From the NCBI RefSeq assembly GCF_033126985.1, contig NZ_AP024714.1, forward strand, positions 992,001 to 1,056,000: a DNA stretch of 64,000 nucleotides, read 5' to 3'. A program made the position numbers and the translations under genes. Below the pieces are notes generated by a model. The model was given only the letters and a program-made list of their open reading frames with translations. It was not told the origin of the DNA and did no database searches. Positions 35,719 to 42,974 of the stretch are shown here, piece by piece. Position 1 is the stretch's first letter. Each line of letters opens with the position of its first letter. The DNA comes from Methylomarinovum caldicuralii (GTDB taxonomy: Bacteria > Pseudomonadota > Gammaproteobacteria > Methylococcales > Methylothermaceae).

Positions 35719-36483
35719 TTATTCTAGAACCAACAGACGGCCCGTCCGGGGTGGCTGGTGGCGCCATTGGGCGAACCAGCGGCCCTGGGCGGGCCATAAT
35801 TTTTCCTGGATCGGCTCGATCAGGGTTTCTCGGCTCAGGAGGTTCGTCAGGACCTGTGGATTCGGCAGGGTGTTGGCGAGCGCCACGGTCAGCACCCCCA
35901 TCGCTAGGGTGGCCTTGAGATCTCGGCCGAAGGGTTTGAGGGCGGTGCCGAAGGAACGCTTCAGGCGCCCGCCGCGTAGATCGACGCTGAACAGCTCGTC
36001 CAGGGTCAGGTGGACGCAGTAGCCCATCCCGACGAACAGTCCCTGCAGCCAGGCCAGGTGCGGAGAGGCGGTGGTGAAGTGGTAGGAGAGACTGGTGGTC
36101 AGGAGCGTGAAGAAGACGACCGCCAGCAGCGAATGGAACACGCCGCGGTGTTCGGTCAGGCGCAGGAACAGCTCGAAGATAAGATAGCGGACGGCGGCGA
36201 AGACGGCGGCGGCCAGGACGCACAGTTCGCTGATGCTGAAGCGGTAATGACCCAGCGTGTAGAAGACGGCCGCGAAGGCCGCCGCCAGTCCCAGCAGGGT
36301 GAAGACCAGCCGCACCGGGGTGGAGTTGTCGGCGTCGATGTCCGGCAGCAGCCCGCCCAACACCCCAAGTGCAAACAGCGCCGGGGCCTGGCTCACGGGA
36401 GCCAGACCGGTGCTGGTGACCGTCGTGGCGGCAGCACCTGCGATGACGGTGGCGAGACTCAGATGGGTCTTGAAATTGGCCAT
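35719..36483 (-). CDS. DUF457 (YdjM-like) inner-membrane metal-dependent hydrolase
   Basis: 254 residues. MANFKTHLSLATVIAG at the start with an early His, the acidic pair in GGLLPDIDADNS (about 44-55) and HRGVFHSLLAV (about 111-121) match the DUF457/YdjM membrane hydrolase group, with about four hydrophobic segments. E. coli YdjM is an SOS gene; no LexA box is evident upstream here. Substrate unknown. Confidence 0.82.
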   Translation of the reverse strand: MANFKTHLSLATVIAGAAATTVTSTGLAPVSQAPALFALGVLGGLLPDIDADNSTPVRLVFTLLGLAAAFAAVFYTLGHYRFSISELCVLAAAVFAAVRYLIFELFLRLTEHRGVFHSLLAVVFFTLLTTSLSYHFTTASPHLAWLQGLFVGMGYCVHLTLDELFSVDLRGGRLKRSFGTALKPFGRDLKATLAMGVLTVALANTLPNPQVLTNLLSRETLIEPIQEKLWPAQGRWFAQWRHQPPRTGRLLVLE

Positions 36484-36549
36484 GCGGACGAGAAAAGGGG
36501 ATCTGTGCCTTGAAGTATACGTAAAATCCGCAGGGCCGGGGTAGCCGCT

Positions 36550-37713
36550 TCAGTCTTTCAGGCTTTCGGCGACCCGGAAACGGAAATCGTAGGGCACTTC
36601 CTGGTTGACGATGAGGGCGAAGGTTCTGCGGCCTTCATCGATGTAGCCGGCATAGCTGCTGACACCTTTGAGGGTGCCGGTCTTGGCGCGGATGCCCGGG
36701 GCGCGCTGCGGCAGCAGCCGGGCGTGGGGGCGGAGGCGCTGCAGCACCTCCACCAGCTGCCGGGCCGAGAGGCGGTTGCGCCGCGACAGGCCGGCGCCCT
36801 CGACCACCCGCCAGTTGCGCCAGCGGAAGCGGGTGGTGATGAAGTCTGCGGCGGCGCGCCGGCCTTTTTCCAGCGTCGCCGGCGGACCGTAGCGTTCCGC
36901 CCCCAGCAGCAGGAACAGCTGGTTGGCGATGAAGTTGTTGGAGTACTTCAGCATGCCAGCCAAAACTTGGTCCAGGGGATGGCGGTTGCGGTGATGGACG
37001 ATCAGCCGGGCGCCGCCTGGAACCTGGGCGTGGACGATGGTTCCCGCAACCTCGATTCCCCCCTGACGCAGTTTCTCCCGCAGCACTTCGGCGAAATACT
37101 GGGCGGCGTCGGTGCGGTGGCCGAGGTTGATCCGGTGGCGGCCGCCCGGCAGGCGGCGGGCCAGCTGCCGGGCCAGCGGGGTCAACGGCGTCTGGGGCTC
37201 GGCGCTGGCCAGGCGGTCGCCGCGCTTCTCCACGTGCAGGGTGTTGAAGTTGACCGCCAGCGCGCCCAGGGCGGCATCGTAGGGATTGTCGGTTTCCGTC
37301 TGGCCGTCCACCGTCAGCGGGCCGGCGAAGTAACCGTCATCGACGCCGATGCCGGCGATCCGGCCGATTCCGGCCGCCTTGAGTTCGGTGACGATAGCGT
37401 CCAGTTCCTCCGAGGTCAGCCAGGGATCCCCGTAGCCCCGGATCCAGAGGCGGCCGTCGGGGCCGCGGAGGAAATCGGTGGCGAAGCGGTGATCCGGCCC
37501 CCAGGTCTGCAGTGCCATCAGCGCGGTCAGCAGCTTGAGGGTCGAGGCGGGGATCAGGGGGCGGTCGGGATGGTAGGCGCGCACTTCCCGACCCCGGGAA
37601 TCGACCACCAGCAAGGCGGCGTCGGGGAGGGTGTAAAGGCGCAGCAGGGCTGCGGGACGGGCGGCCGCCGCCCAGGAGCACAGGAGGAGACAGAGGCACA
37701 GCAGGGGGCGCAT
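36550..37713 (-). CDS. dacB: D-alanyl-D-alanine carboxypeptidase/endopeptidase (PBP4 family, DacB)
   Basis: 387 residues with an N-terminal signal peptide. All three penicillin-binding motifs are present: SxxK as ASTLK (about residue 56), SxN as YSNN (about 257) and KTG as AKTGTL (about 344). It trims peptidoglycan in the periplasm. It is shorter than E. coli PBP4 (477), with a reduced insert between SxxK and SxN. The gene is followed 65 bases later by the DUF457 gene on the same strand. Confidence 0.92.
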   Translation of the reverse strand: MRPLLCLCLLLCSWAAAARPAALLRLYTLPDAALLVVDSRGREVRAYHPDRPLIPASTLKLLTALMALQTWGPDHRFATDFLRGPDGRLWIRGYGDPWLTSEELDAIVTELKAAGIGRIAGIGVDDGYFAGPLTVDGQTETDNPYDAALGALAVNFNTLHVEKRGDRLASAEPQTPLTPLARQLARRLPGGRHRINLGHRTDAAQYFAEVLREKLRQGGIEVAGTIVHAQVPGGARLIVHHRNRHPLDQVLAGMLKYSNNFIANQLFLLLGAERYGPPATLEKGRRAAADFITTRFRWRNWRVVEGAGLSRRNRLSARQLVEVLQRLRPHARLLPQRAPGIRAKTGTLKGVSSYAGYIDEGRRTFALIVNQEVPYDFRFRVAESLKD

Positions 37714-37728
37714 AGGCCCCCAAGTGTA

Positions 37729-38421
37729 TCAGCTTTGGCGCCGCTGCGGGGCCCCTTCGGATTCTTCCAGCGGCACCCCGCCGCGGGCTTCGCATTCCTG
37801 GGGGGAGACGTAGAGATAGCCGCGCCCCTTGCAGTCGTTCTGCCCCTTGCAGGCGTTGAAGGCGGTGGCGCAGGCGGTGGTGCCCTTACAGTCGTTGATG
37901 CCCCAGCAGGCGATTTCGCCTTCCTCCGGCGCCGGGGCGTATCGTTCCACCGACTTGGCCAGGCCGTAGAACGCCCCGGCGGCGGCGACGCTGATGGCCG
38001 CGCCGGTGAGGCGGCGGCGCTGGGGATCGACGCTTTCCTCCGCCTCGCAGGCGGGCGCGCGGCGGGCGAGGACGAAGTCCCAGACCTGGGCGGCGATGAA
38101 CGCCAGCAGCCCTGCGACCACCAGGGCGTTCTGCGGCGCCAGGCCGGTCACCGTGAACCAGAGGGCGAAGGCGGCCAACAGGCCGCCGGCCAGGGCCAGT
38201 CCGAAGGGGCCGCTGTGGCCGTGGCGACGGCGGTTGCGGTACAGCAGCCACAGGCTCAGGGCCAGGAAGGCGGTGAACAGCGGATACAGATAGACGTCGT
38301 TGAGCAGAAATCCCAGGCCCACCGCGGTGGCGGCGCTGAGCGCCAGCGGCAGACCCAGGCAGCAGGCGGCGGCGAAGGCGGCGCCGAAGGTGCCGAAGAA
38401 CTGAGCGAGACGGTCTTTCAT
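37729..38421 (-). CDS. MerC-like mercury transport domain fused to a bufferin-like (BufA2-type) Cys-rich domain
   Basis: 230 residues. Residues 1-115 have four hydrophobic segments and a Cys pair in AAACCLGLP (Cys20, Cys21), as in MerC/MerT-type Hg(II) importers. After a linker, a fifth hydrophobic segment (about 138-155) leads to a Cys-rich tail with six cysteines (172, 178, 184, 191, 197, 210) in the pattern CWGINDCKG, TTACATAFNACKG, QNDCKGRGYL and a closing ECEARGG. That tail reads like BufA2 bufferins, small periplasmic metal-binding peptides. I know of no standard mer gene with this arrangement; the two halves share one uninterrupted frame. It follows merA by 12 bases and would deliver or buffer Hg(II), or possibly copper. 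Confidence 0.8.
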   Translation of the reverse strand: MKDRLAQFFGTFGAAFAAACCLGLPLALSAATAVGLGFLLNDVYLYPLFTAFLALSLWLLYRNRRRHGHSGPFGLALAGGLLAAFALWFTVTGLAPQNALVVAGLLAFIAAQVWDFVLARRAPACEAEESVDPQRRRLTGAAISVAAAGAFYGLAKSVERYAPAPEEGEIACWGINDCKGTTACATAFNACKGQNDCKGRGYLYVSPQECEARGGVPLEESEGAPQRRQS

Positions 38422-38433
38422 GGCGTGTTCCTC

Positions 38434-40071
<1,638 letters not shown>

Positions 40072-40101
40072 GATCTTTCTCCCGCAGTGTCGAGGCTTCC
40101 A

Positions 40102-40133
40102 AGGTTACACCCCGTAGGTAGCTACGGAGTCAA
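40102..40133 (-). promoter_or_regulatory. MerR-type mer operator-promoter
   Basis: Minus strand: TTGACT (40133-40128), then the dyad CCGTAG-CTAC-CTACGG, then TAACCT (40107-40102) with a 20-base spacer (19 if GTAACC is used). The dyad spacing, the over-long spacer and even the sequence TTGACTCCGTA copy the classical Tn501/Tn21 mer promoter. The transcript would begin just upstream of merA (ATG 40071). No merR gene is found in this window. Confidence 0.88.
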
Positions 40134-40157
40134 GCAGAATTTCGATGGAGGCGAGCC

Positions 40158-40922
40158 ATGCTAGAAATCGTCCAGATTCCGGTCCTCAGCGACAATTACG
40201 TTTATCTGCTGCACGAGGGCGTGTCCGGCCAGACCGCGGTCGTGGACCCGGCGGAGGCGGAACCGGTGCTGGCGGCCTTGGCGCAACGCCGCTGGACCCT
40301 GGACTACGTTCTCAACACCCACCATCACTGGGACCACGTGGGGGCGAATCCGGCCCTGAAGCAAGCGACCGGCTGCCGGGTGGTCGGTTTCCGGGGGGAT
40401 GCCCGGCGGATTCCCGGCATCGATGTGCAACTGGCGGAGGGGGATGTCTTCGAGCTGGGGGAGTGCCGTGCCCGGGTGCTGGAAGTACCGGGACACACCC
40501 TGGGACACGTCGCCTACTGGTTCGAGGCGGACGCCGCGCTGTTCTGCGGCGACACCCTGTTCGCGCTGGGATGCGGCCGTCTGTTCGAAGGCACCCCGGC
40601 GCAGATGTGGGATTCTCTGTGCAAGCTGCGGATGCTGCCGGATCAGACCTGGGTTTACTGCGCCCACGAGTACACCCTCAAGAACGCCCGTTTCGCCCTC
40701 ACCATCGAACCGGATCATCCGCCGTTGCTGGAGCGGGTGCGCCGGGTCGAGGCGTTGCGGGCGCAGGACCTGCCGACGGTGCCCTCCCTGCTGGGGGAGG
40801 AGAAAGCCACCAACCCCTTTTTGCGTGCCGACGTCCCCGAGCTGCAGGCCAGCCTGGGAATGGCCGGGGCCCCGGCGGTGGAGGTCTTCGCCGAGCTGCG
40901 CCGCCGCCGTGACCGCTTCTGA
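40158..40922 (+). CDS. gloB: Hydroxyacylglutathione hydrolase (glyoxalase II)
   Basis: 254 residues, standard length. The metallo-beta-lactamase signature NTHHHWDHVGAN (THxHxDH, about 53-64), GHTLGHVAYW, FCGDTLFALGCGRLFEG and CAHEYTLKN match glyoxalase II, which hydrolyses S-D-lactoylglutathione. The start ATG at 40158 has GGAGG upstream. It diverges from the mer promoter with only 24 bases between -35 and its start codon. Confidence 0.93.
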   Translation: MLEIVQIPVLSDNYVYLLHEGVSGQTAVVDPAEAEPVLAALAQRRWTLDYVLNTHHHWDHVGANPALKQATGCRVVGFRGDARRIPGIDVQLAEGDVFELGECRARVLEVPGHTLGHVAYWFEADAALFCGDTLFALGCGRLFEGTPAQMWDSLCKLRMLPDQTWVYCAHEYTLKNARFALTIEPDHPPLLERVRRVEALRAQDLPTVPSLLGEEKATNPFLRADVPELQASLGMAGAPAVEVFAELRRRRDRF

Positions 40923-41041
40923 GCCGTCACCGGATCGAAGTGCTCAACGTCGCCGGCCCGCGGGCGAGCCAGTGGCGCGGCGGCTATGCCTATGCCCGGG
41001 AGCTGCTGACCCGGCTGCTGGCGGGTCAGCGCACGCCATAG
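40913..41041 (+). pseudogene. C-terminal remnant resembling a putative molybdenum carrier protein
   Basis: A frame overlapping the end of gloB and running to a TAG at 41039-41041 reads SRHRIEVLNVAGPRAS followed by WRGGYAYARELLTRLLAG. This resembles from memory the C-terminus of the putative molybdenum-carrier (PF12694) family. No body of such a gene precedes it (an in-frame TGA lies at 40910), so it would be a scrap of a lost gene. A chance frame is possible. Confidence 0.35.
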
Positions 41042-41682
41042 ACCACGATGGTCTTGCCGTGGGCCGTGAGCAGCCCCTCCTCCTCCAGGTTTTTCAGCAC
41101 CCGCCCGGCCATTTCCCGCGAGCAGCCGACGATCCGCCCCAGTTCCTGGCGGGTGATGCGGATCTGCATGCCGTCCGGGTGGGTCATGGCGTCCGGTTCC
41201 TGGCACAGGTCGATCAGGGTGCGGGCGATGCGGCCGGTGACGTCGAGAAAGGCGAGATGGCCCACTTTGCGGCTGGTCTGCAACAGCCGCCGCGACACCT
41301 GCCGTCCCAGGGTGCGTAGCAGTTCGGCGGCGTGAGGGGCCAGCTCGTTGCGGAGGCAGTGCTCCAGGCGCTGATAGCTGATTTCCGCCAGTTGGCAGGG
41401 CTCGCGGGTGCGGACCGTGACCTCGCGCTGCCGTTCCCCCAGGAATACCCCGATTTCGCCGATGAACTCCCCCTTGTTGAGATAGCCGAGAATCAGCTCG
41501 CGGCTTTCGTCTTCCTGAATGCTGATGCTGACCGAGCCTTCGATGAGGTAGTAAAGGGTGTCGCCGGGATCGCCGGGTTTGATGATGGCCGTACGTTTCG
41601 GGTAGCGGCGCCGGTGGCAGCAGGCCAGAAAGGCCTGAAGGCAGTCGTCGTTCTGCACGATGGGTTCCGGTTGAGCTTGCAT
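41026..41682 (-). CDS. crp: Crp-family transcriptional regulator (CRP/Vfr-like)
   Basis: 218 residues. The cyclic-nucleotide-binding fold has the phosphate-binding cassette GEFIGEIGVFLGERQREVTVRT (in part, about 78-98), and the C-terminal helix-turn-helix reads LGRIVGCSREMAGRVLKNLEEEGLL, close to that of CRP. No Fnr-type cysteine cluster. I use the ATG at 41682 (MQAQPEPIVQNDD) with AGGCGGG upstream; the open frame extends 25 codons further without support. It may respond to cAMP, but no cyclase is in view. Confidence 0.9.
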   Translation of the reverse strand: MQAQPEPIVQNDDCLQAFLACCHRRRYPKRTAIIKPGDPGDTLYYLIEGSVSISIQEDESRELILGYLNKGEFIGEIGVFLGERQREVTVRTREPCQLAEISYQRLEHCLRNELAPHAAELLRTLGRQVSRRLLQTSRKVGHLAFLDVTGRIARTLIDLCQEPDAMTHPDGMQIRITRQELGRIVGCSREMAGRVLKNLEEEGLLTAHGKTIVVYGVR

Positions 41683-41804
41683 GGTCCCGCCTGGTCCGTG
41701 GATGACGTATTTAAGTCTAGGCCAGCCTGGCGATCTGTAAAGGCGGGTGATTTGCACAGCCGGAACGTGGTATTTTGCCCCGCAGGAGAAACAGGAGGTG
41801 CGCC

Positions 41805-42974
41805 ATGTTCGATTCCCGTCTGCTCGATGAACTCTATCCCCATTGGGTCGAATTGCGGCGGGCGTTCCACCGCGAGCCCGAGCTGGCCTTCGAGGAGGTC
41901 GAAACCGCCAAAAAGATCATGGCCGAGCTCGACCGTCTCGGCATTCCCTACACCTATCAGGGCAAGGGCGGCGGCGTCATCGGTCACATCGAGGGCGGGC
42001 GCCCGGGTCCCCAGGTGGCGCTGCGGGCCGACATGGACGCCCTGCCGGGAGAGGAGCTCACCGGCCTGCCGTTCGCTTCCCGTTTCCCCGGGCGGGTCCA
42101 CGCCTGCGGCCACGACGCCCACTTGACCATGGTACTGGGCGCGGCGGCGCTGCTGCAGGCCGATCCCCCGCCGGGCAAGGTGGTGCTGGTATTCCAGCCG
42201 GCCGAAGAGCGCGGCGGCGGGGCACGGGTGATTCTCGCCTCCGGGGCGCTTGACCAGGTGCGGGCGATCTTCGGCGGTCACGTGACCCATCATTACCGGG
42301 TGGGGGAGATCATGATCGGGGAGGGGGTGGTAACCGCCCAGTCGGACCGCTTCCAGATGCATATCCACGGCCGGGGCGGTCATGGCGCCCGGCCTCACGA
42401 GGCCATCGACGCAGTGGTGATCGCCGGTTCCCTGATCACCACCGTGCAGACCCTGGTGTCGCGCGAGGTCGATCCGCTGCATCCGTCGGTCGTCACCGTC
42501 GGCCAGGTGTCGGCGGGAACGGCGCCGAACGTGATCGCCGCCGAAGCCAGGCTCGCCGGCACCATTCGCACCACCGATCCCCAGTCCCGACGTCACCTGC
42601 ACGCTGGCCTCAAGCGCATGGCCCGGGCGCTGGGGGAACTGCACCGGGCCCGGATCGAGCTGGAGATCCAGCCCGGTTATCCGCCGGTGATCAACTCGCC
42701 CCAGGAGACCGAGATCGCCCGCCGCGCCGCGGCGGCGGTGGTCGGGGACAAGGGCGTGGTGCCCATGGAGCATCCGAGCATGGGGTCGGAGGACTTCGCC
42801 TTCTACCTGGAAAAGATTCCCGGCTGTTACGTGCGCTTCGGCGCCCGCCGCCGCGAGGACGAATACATCCCGCTGCACAGTCCCCAGTTCGACATCAACG
42901 AGGAAGTTCTCAAGGTGGGGGCGGCCTGGTTCGCCCGAGTGGCATGGGAGGCGATCCATGCCTACAGCGCCTGA
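41805..42974 (+). CDS. M20D-family amidohydrolase (hippurate/IAA-amino-acid hydrolase-like)
   Basis: 389 residues. Early RRAFHREPELAFEE, the RADMDALP catalytic-metal segment (about 75), HACGHDAH (metal ligands), QPAEERGGGARV and HPSMGSEDFAFYLE define the M20D aminoacylase/amidohydrolase group, which removes acyl groups from N-acyl amino acids. AGGAGG lies 5 bases before the ATG at 41805. It overlaps the YbdK gene by 17 bases. Confidence 0.92.
   Translation: MFDSRLLDELYPHWVELRRAFHREPELAFEEVETAKKIMAELDRLGIPYTYQGKGGGVIGHIEGGRPGPQVALRADMDALPGEELTGLPFASRFPGRVHACGHDAHLTMVLGAAALLQADPPPGKVVLVFQPAEERGGGARVILASGALDQVRAIFGGHVTHHYRVGEIMIGEGVVTAQSDRFQMHIHGRGGHGARPHEAIDAVVIAGSLITTVQTLVSREVDPLHPSVVTVGQVSAGTAPNVIAAEARLAGTIRTTDPQSRRHLHAGLKRMARALGELHRARIELEIQPGYPPVINSPQETEIARRAAAAVVGDKGVVPMEHPSMGSEDFAFYLEKIPGCYVRFGARRREDEYIPLHSPQFDINEEVLKVGAAWFARVAWEAIHAYSA

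Follow-up and report, generated by a model that had tools for sequence, protein, structure and literature searches.

The gene at positions 37729-38421 (minus strand) of the analyzed window, a 64,000-nucleotide stretch of the Methylomarinovum caldicuralii genome, encodes a MerC-family membrane protein fused to an entire BufA2-type bufferin precursor, and is a well-supported further example of the published MerC|Buf2 architecture. To judge from its sequence and gene neighborhood, the likely function of this fusion would be that of a tethered periplasmic trap for Hg(II), which feeds MerC and the mercuric reductase MerA. Antoine et al. 2025 (PMC12452194, Fig. 3j,k) already presented MerC|Buf1 and MerC|Buf2 chimaeras, which have five segments predicted to span the membrane and a periplasmic bufferin domain and lie in mercury-detoxification clusters, and the proposal in the first-pass annotation of this DNA that the domain architecture is new can therefore not be upheld. 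Compared on the published description, a MerC|Buf2 chimaera such as OOO01496.1 agrees with the M. caldicuralii protein in its two domains and their order, in the number of membrane segments (five), in the predicted periplasmic place of the bufferin and in the mercury context, and nothing essential differs, the maturase genes of M. caldicuralii lying in trans. The 2025 survey suggested the mercury link of bufferins from gene context only (PMC12452194), and our searches of the literature on MerC-bufferin fusions turned up no data on binding, on modification or on transport.

The fusion is encoded by a single frame, as had been proposed, which reads from an ATG at 38421 to 37729, specifies 230 amino acids followed by a stop, and is preceded by a ribosome-binding site (AGGAGG) 8 bases 5' of the start. 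Residues 9-116 (38074-38397, minus strand) match the Pfam MerC family PF03203 with 45.4 bits against a gathering cut-off of 27.6, and residues 141-215 (37777-38001, minus strand) match the NCBIfam BufA2 model NF050166 with 76.5 bits against an equivalog cut-off of 60; the latter domain was recovered at identical coordinates when the whole genome was searched with profiles. Hence, the assignment of the two halves to a four-helix MerC-like domain and a bufferin tail withstood the profile searches, including that of the cysteine-rich tail, for which failure to match the bufferin models had been named as the possible weak point. The full complement of cysteines consists of a vicinal pair, Cys20-Cys21, in MerC helix 1, Cys125 after helix 4, and exactly six in the tail (Cys172, Cys178, Cys184, Cys191, Cys197 and Cys210), where CKG occurs at three sites in a pattern that matches the stand-alone BufA2 of the same genome. 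While the protein has the four-helix fold, the helix-1 cysteine pair and the mer operon setting in common with the MerC of Tn21, it differs from it in the added tail, in the single cysteine after helix 4 and in falling far under the MerC equivalog cut-offs (24.6 versus 170 bits for NF010318 and 21.7 versus 140 bits for NF033784). The MerC half is thus a MerC-family protein and not a classical Tn21-type MerC. An Rfam search of positions 36000-42000 gave no match.

The fifth helix noted earlier does exist, but it is not a separate element between the MerC domain and the tail: the BufA2 profile match takes it in, and it corresponds to the signal-peptide helix of BufA2. The fused part is accordingly the whole BufA2 precursor inclusive of its signal sequence. 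Since this signal helix is internal (approximately residues 139-157) rather than N-terminal, and is used as the fifth membrane helix, the protein holds a BufA2 domain and is not a free bufferin. The signal helix and six-cysteine core are common to stand-alone BufA2 (NF050166), from which the fusion differs in its position behind MerC, from where it is probably not released, and in a drift away from lysine, across the fusion family, at the positions that follow cysteines four and five of the core. The lysines and arginines of the N-terminus and loops 1, 2, 3 and 4 number 2, 0, 4, 0 and 5, respectively, a distribution that predicts a cytoplasmic N-terminus, cytoplasmic loops 2 and 4 and an external tail. 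AlphaFold models, which had mean pLDDT values of 55-57 with 5 and 13 sequences and were taken for the helix count only, show four MerC helices, one of them bent, and then a helix at residues 133-161, all at low confidence. Together, the charge pattern and these low-confidence models indicate that the BufA2 tail probably lies in the periplasm, which is not the side that would have spoken against a transfer of metal.

To place the fusion in an evolutionary context we collected related sequences and recovered eleven distinct full fusions from six gammaproteobacterial families. The ten others, with 53-95% identity to the M. caldicuralii protein, keep the joint and the cysteines, and therefore the fusion is neither a chance occurrence nor an assembly artefact; Cys20-Cys21 and all six tail cysteines are kept in 11/11. 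In the nearest relative (G013) the proteins are ~92% identical. Within the genus the fusion is present in 6 of 10 genomes and a stand-alone BufA2 in all 10, whereas an even sample of the class yielded full fusions in 6 of 369 genomes, one per family, and no additional full fusion came from 398 genomes sampled across the phylum. We also considered a spread of the fusion on plasmids and rejected it, as no PLSDB record spans 80% of the fusion and the matches are to lone segments of BufA2 size only. A match in a Caulobacteraceae MAG (L010) was likewise set aside, being actually a stand-alone BufA2. Two further proteins (L132:3565-4997 and L133:6399-7814) carry an ArsM-like methyltransferase ahead of a MerC-like domain, which is followed by a helix and tail of the BufA2 type; the first is cut by a contig end and its tail scores 32.9 bits, the tail of the second is degenerate, and in these three-part proteins one cysteine of the MerC pair is left. 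Literature searches for an ArsM-MerC-BufA2 protein gave no match.

The proposed location in a mer operon is borne out by the gene directly upstream, which is merA: its catalytic part (38434-39912, minus strand) matches TIGR02053 with 558 bits against a cut-off of 454, and its stop is separated from the start of the fusion by 12 bases. Ahead of merA, a MerR-type operator/promoter of the form TTGACTCCGTA-N6-TACGGGGTGTAACCTT can be read directly at 40101-40133 on the minus strand. The stretch from 40133 to 40101, TTGACTCCGTAGCTACCTACGGGGTGTAACCTT, is one that we take to resemble the Tn21 mer promoter. The operator dyad CCGTA-N4-8-TACGG occurs at three sites in the genome, and the box ahead of merA is conserved in the genus, being also present in L006, L113, L114 and L115. 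The frame for the N-terminal HMA domain of MerA (NmerA; 39940-40071, minus strand) is closed by an in-frame TAA at 39940-39942, such that the catalytic part may begin at the GTG at 39912; this TAA could represent either a real loss or a sequencing error. The NmerA frame is uninterrupted in three relatives (L113, L114 and L115), most of the domain is gone in L006, and the merA of L009 has a stop and a frame change.

Linkage to merA extends across the family: in 10/10 loci with flanking sequence merA lies ahead of the fusion on the same strand, either adjacent or with at most two small genes between them, the eleventh full fusion (L007) starting at a contig end and hence standing outside this count. 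The order in L008 is merT-merP-merA-redoxin-membrane protein-merC::bufA2-bufA2-bufB-bufC-merD-merB-like, and that in L009 is merA-cytochrome-like-merC::bufA2-bufB-bufC. In two families (L008:4860-5908 and L130:8310-9243) merA and the fusion are separated by genes for a redoxin-like protein and for a membrane protein with no Pfam match. The M. caldicuralii genome, a single contig of 2,694,844 bases, additionally groups merR-merT-merP at ~1.79 Mb with a similar promoter in front; the MerR of this cluster falls short of the TIGR02051 cut-off (138 versus 150.85 bits) but has all three metal-ligand cysteines that an Hg(II) MerR would be expected to have. We examined whether the tail might replace MerP, and excluded this as its main role because M. 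caldicuralii has a merP of its own in trans (L117), and four relatives (L008, L129, L130 and L131) have one in cis. Given the presence of MerP and MerT, a second periplasmic Hg(II) trap is not obviously needed.

Taken with the above, we consider it fairly probable that the gene encodes an Hg(II)-induced MerC importer bearing an uncleaved periplasmic BufA2 trap that hands Hg(II) via Cys20-Cys21 to MerA. Under this proposal Hg(II) would induce an inner-membrane MerC importer that ends in a complete BufA2 precursor, whose signal helix, probably uncleaved, would serve as membrane helix 5 and leave the six-cysteine core hanging in the periplasm. There the core would capture ions of soft metals, with Hg(II) as the most likely one, in the vicinity of Cys20-Cys21, which would pass the metal inward for reduction by MerA to Hg(0). 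Prior to export, at least one tail cysteine would probably be oxidized to a thiooxazole by an MNIO (BufB with BufC), supplied in M. caldicuralii by the single housekeeping BufB in trans and in some relatives by dedicated neighbors.

The distribution of the maturase bears on the last of these steps. An MNIO is encoded in 11/11 genomes with a full fusion; in M. caldicuralii no maturase gene was found beside the fusion, and a bufferin operon at ~2.56 Mb encodes a lipoprotein BufA2 together with an MNIO and a DUF2063 protein, each the sole one of its kind in the genome. A complete set of bufferin genes (bufA2, the MNIO gene bufB and bufC) is present in trans to the fusion. The stand-alone BufA2 of this operon (L003:1483-1911, minus strand; G000:C1 ~2561173-2561361) is lipoprotein-like, with a long Gln/Met-rich linker ahead of its cysteine core. 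In three families (L008, L009 and L130) bufB-bufC share the gene run with the fusion, separated from it in L130 by a flavoprotein. The MNIOs of these loci (L008:7098-7925, L009:6741-7535 and L130:5170-5973) form a clade of their own with support of 100/97, separate from the housekeeping BufB of M. caldicuralii and of other fusion genomes, which suggests a bufferin maturase dedicated to mercury. In the 98% complete genome that contains L009 (G272) no BufA2 other than the fusion was found, which leaves the fusion as the only BufA2-type substrate for the adjacent BufB; among the genetic observations, this case speaks most strongly for a modification of such tails. A second MNIO of G272 may have another peptide as its substrate.

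The BufA2-type MNIO motif is Cys-Lys, with the lysine modeled against an aspartate of BufB (PMC13097082). Among profile-found sequences, lysine follows the fourth cysteine in 15/16 stand-alone BufA2 versus 4/11 fusions (Fisher p = 0.002, indicative only as the sequences are related), a comparison from which we left out loci fetched by a pattern requiring CKG, with its biased p = 8e-6. The replacements in fusions are A, N, T or R, and outside the genus the lysine is found in 6/6 families for stand-alone forms versus 0/5 for fusions, while the M. caldicuralii fusion itself has lysine after its fourth tail cysteine, Cys191. We regard this drift as a lead and not as proof, and found no description in the literature of either it or the mer-linked MNIO clade. 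It is possible, if doubtful, that the tail goes without MNIO modification altogether, with plain thiols chelating Hg(II) and the BufA2 motif persisting as a relic: the loss of the lysine in 7/11 fusions and the lack of an adjoining maturase gene in M. caldicuralii favor this, as does the consideration that a cytoplasmic MNIO may have difficulty in gaining access to the tail of a polytopic membrane protein before it is inserted, but the bufB-bufC neighbors in three families with their own clade, the sole BufA2 of G272 and the three CKG sites of the M. caldicuralii tail, like those of its stand-alone BufA2, argue against it. We would only tentatively entertain a dedicated mercury bufferin system, in which the tail would be part thiooxazole, modified by its own MNIO lineage, and part free thiols, in keeping with the drift at Cys191, and would be adapted to Hg(II) rather than Cu(I); in M. 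caldicuralii the dedicated maturase would be absent and the housekeeping BufB would act in trans.

The hand-over of metal to MerC invites its own alternative, namely that the tail buffers Hg(II) passively in the periplasm and so guards envelope thiols, with MerC mainly an anchor. Stand-alone bufferins do buffer metal without a transporter, and membrane anchoring is common among them, with ~16% of Buf2 being predicted lipoproteins (PMC12452194), a form that the stand-alone BufA2 of M. caldicuralii also takes. This appears unlikely, however, as the invariant Cys20-Cys21 pair would be needless for a mere anchor, and merA is in the gene run of the fusion in every locus with flanking sequence. Further, derivation of helix 5 from a signal peptide raises the prospect of a signal peptidase cut that frees the bufferin into the periplasm, leaving the fusion as a co-expression device only. 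GLA|K of the M. caldicuralii protein is a possible weak site, but the small residue is unconserved, being replaced by Tyr in L008, L009 and other fusions, and neither a conserved signal-peptidase site nor an A-X-A common to the family was found, which makes a tethered tail likelier than a released one and cleavage distinctly improbable. That the tail instead serves copper, or some other soft metal, and is induced together with the mer genes because metals co-occur (e.g. at vents), with no direct role for Hg(II), is very unlikely, for although bufferins studied to date are linked to copper and act in copper stress (PMC12452194), and M. caldicuralii is apparently a methanotroph from vents whose demand for copper is high, the MerR-type operator and merA linkage over six families speak against it, as do the separate BufA2 proteins that fusion genomes other than G272 (where none was found) hold for other purposes.

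Returning to the tethered trap that feeds MerC and MerA, the mercury question is open to testing as M. caldicuralii is a cultured species. If the tail binds Hg(II), the range of MNIO-modified peptides would widen from copper to mercury, and the fusion would represent a RiPP-type metal ligand built into a transporter.
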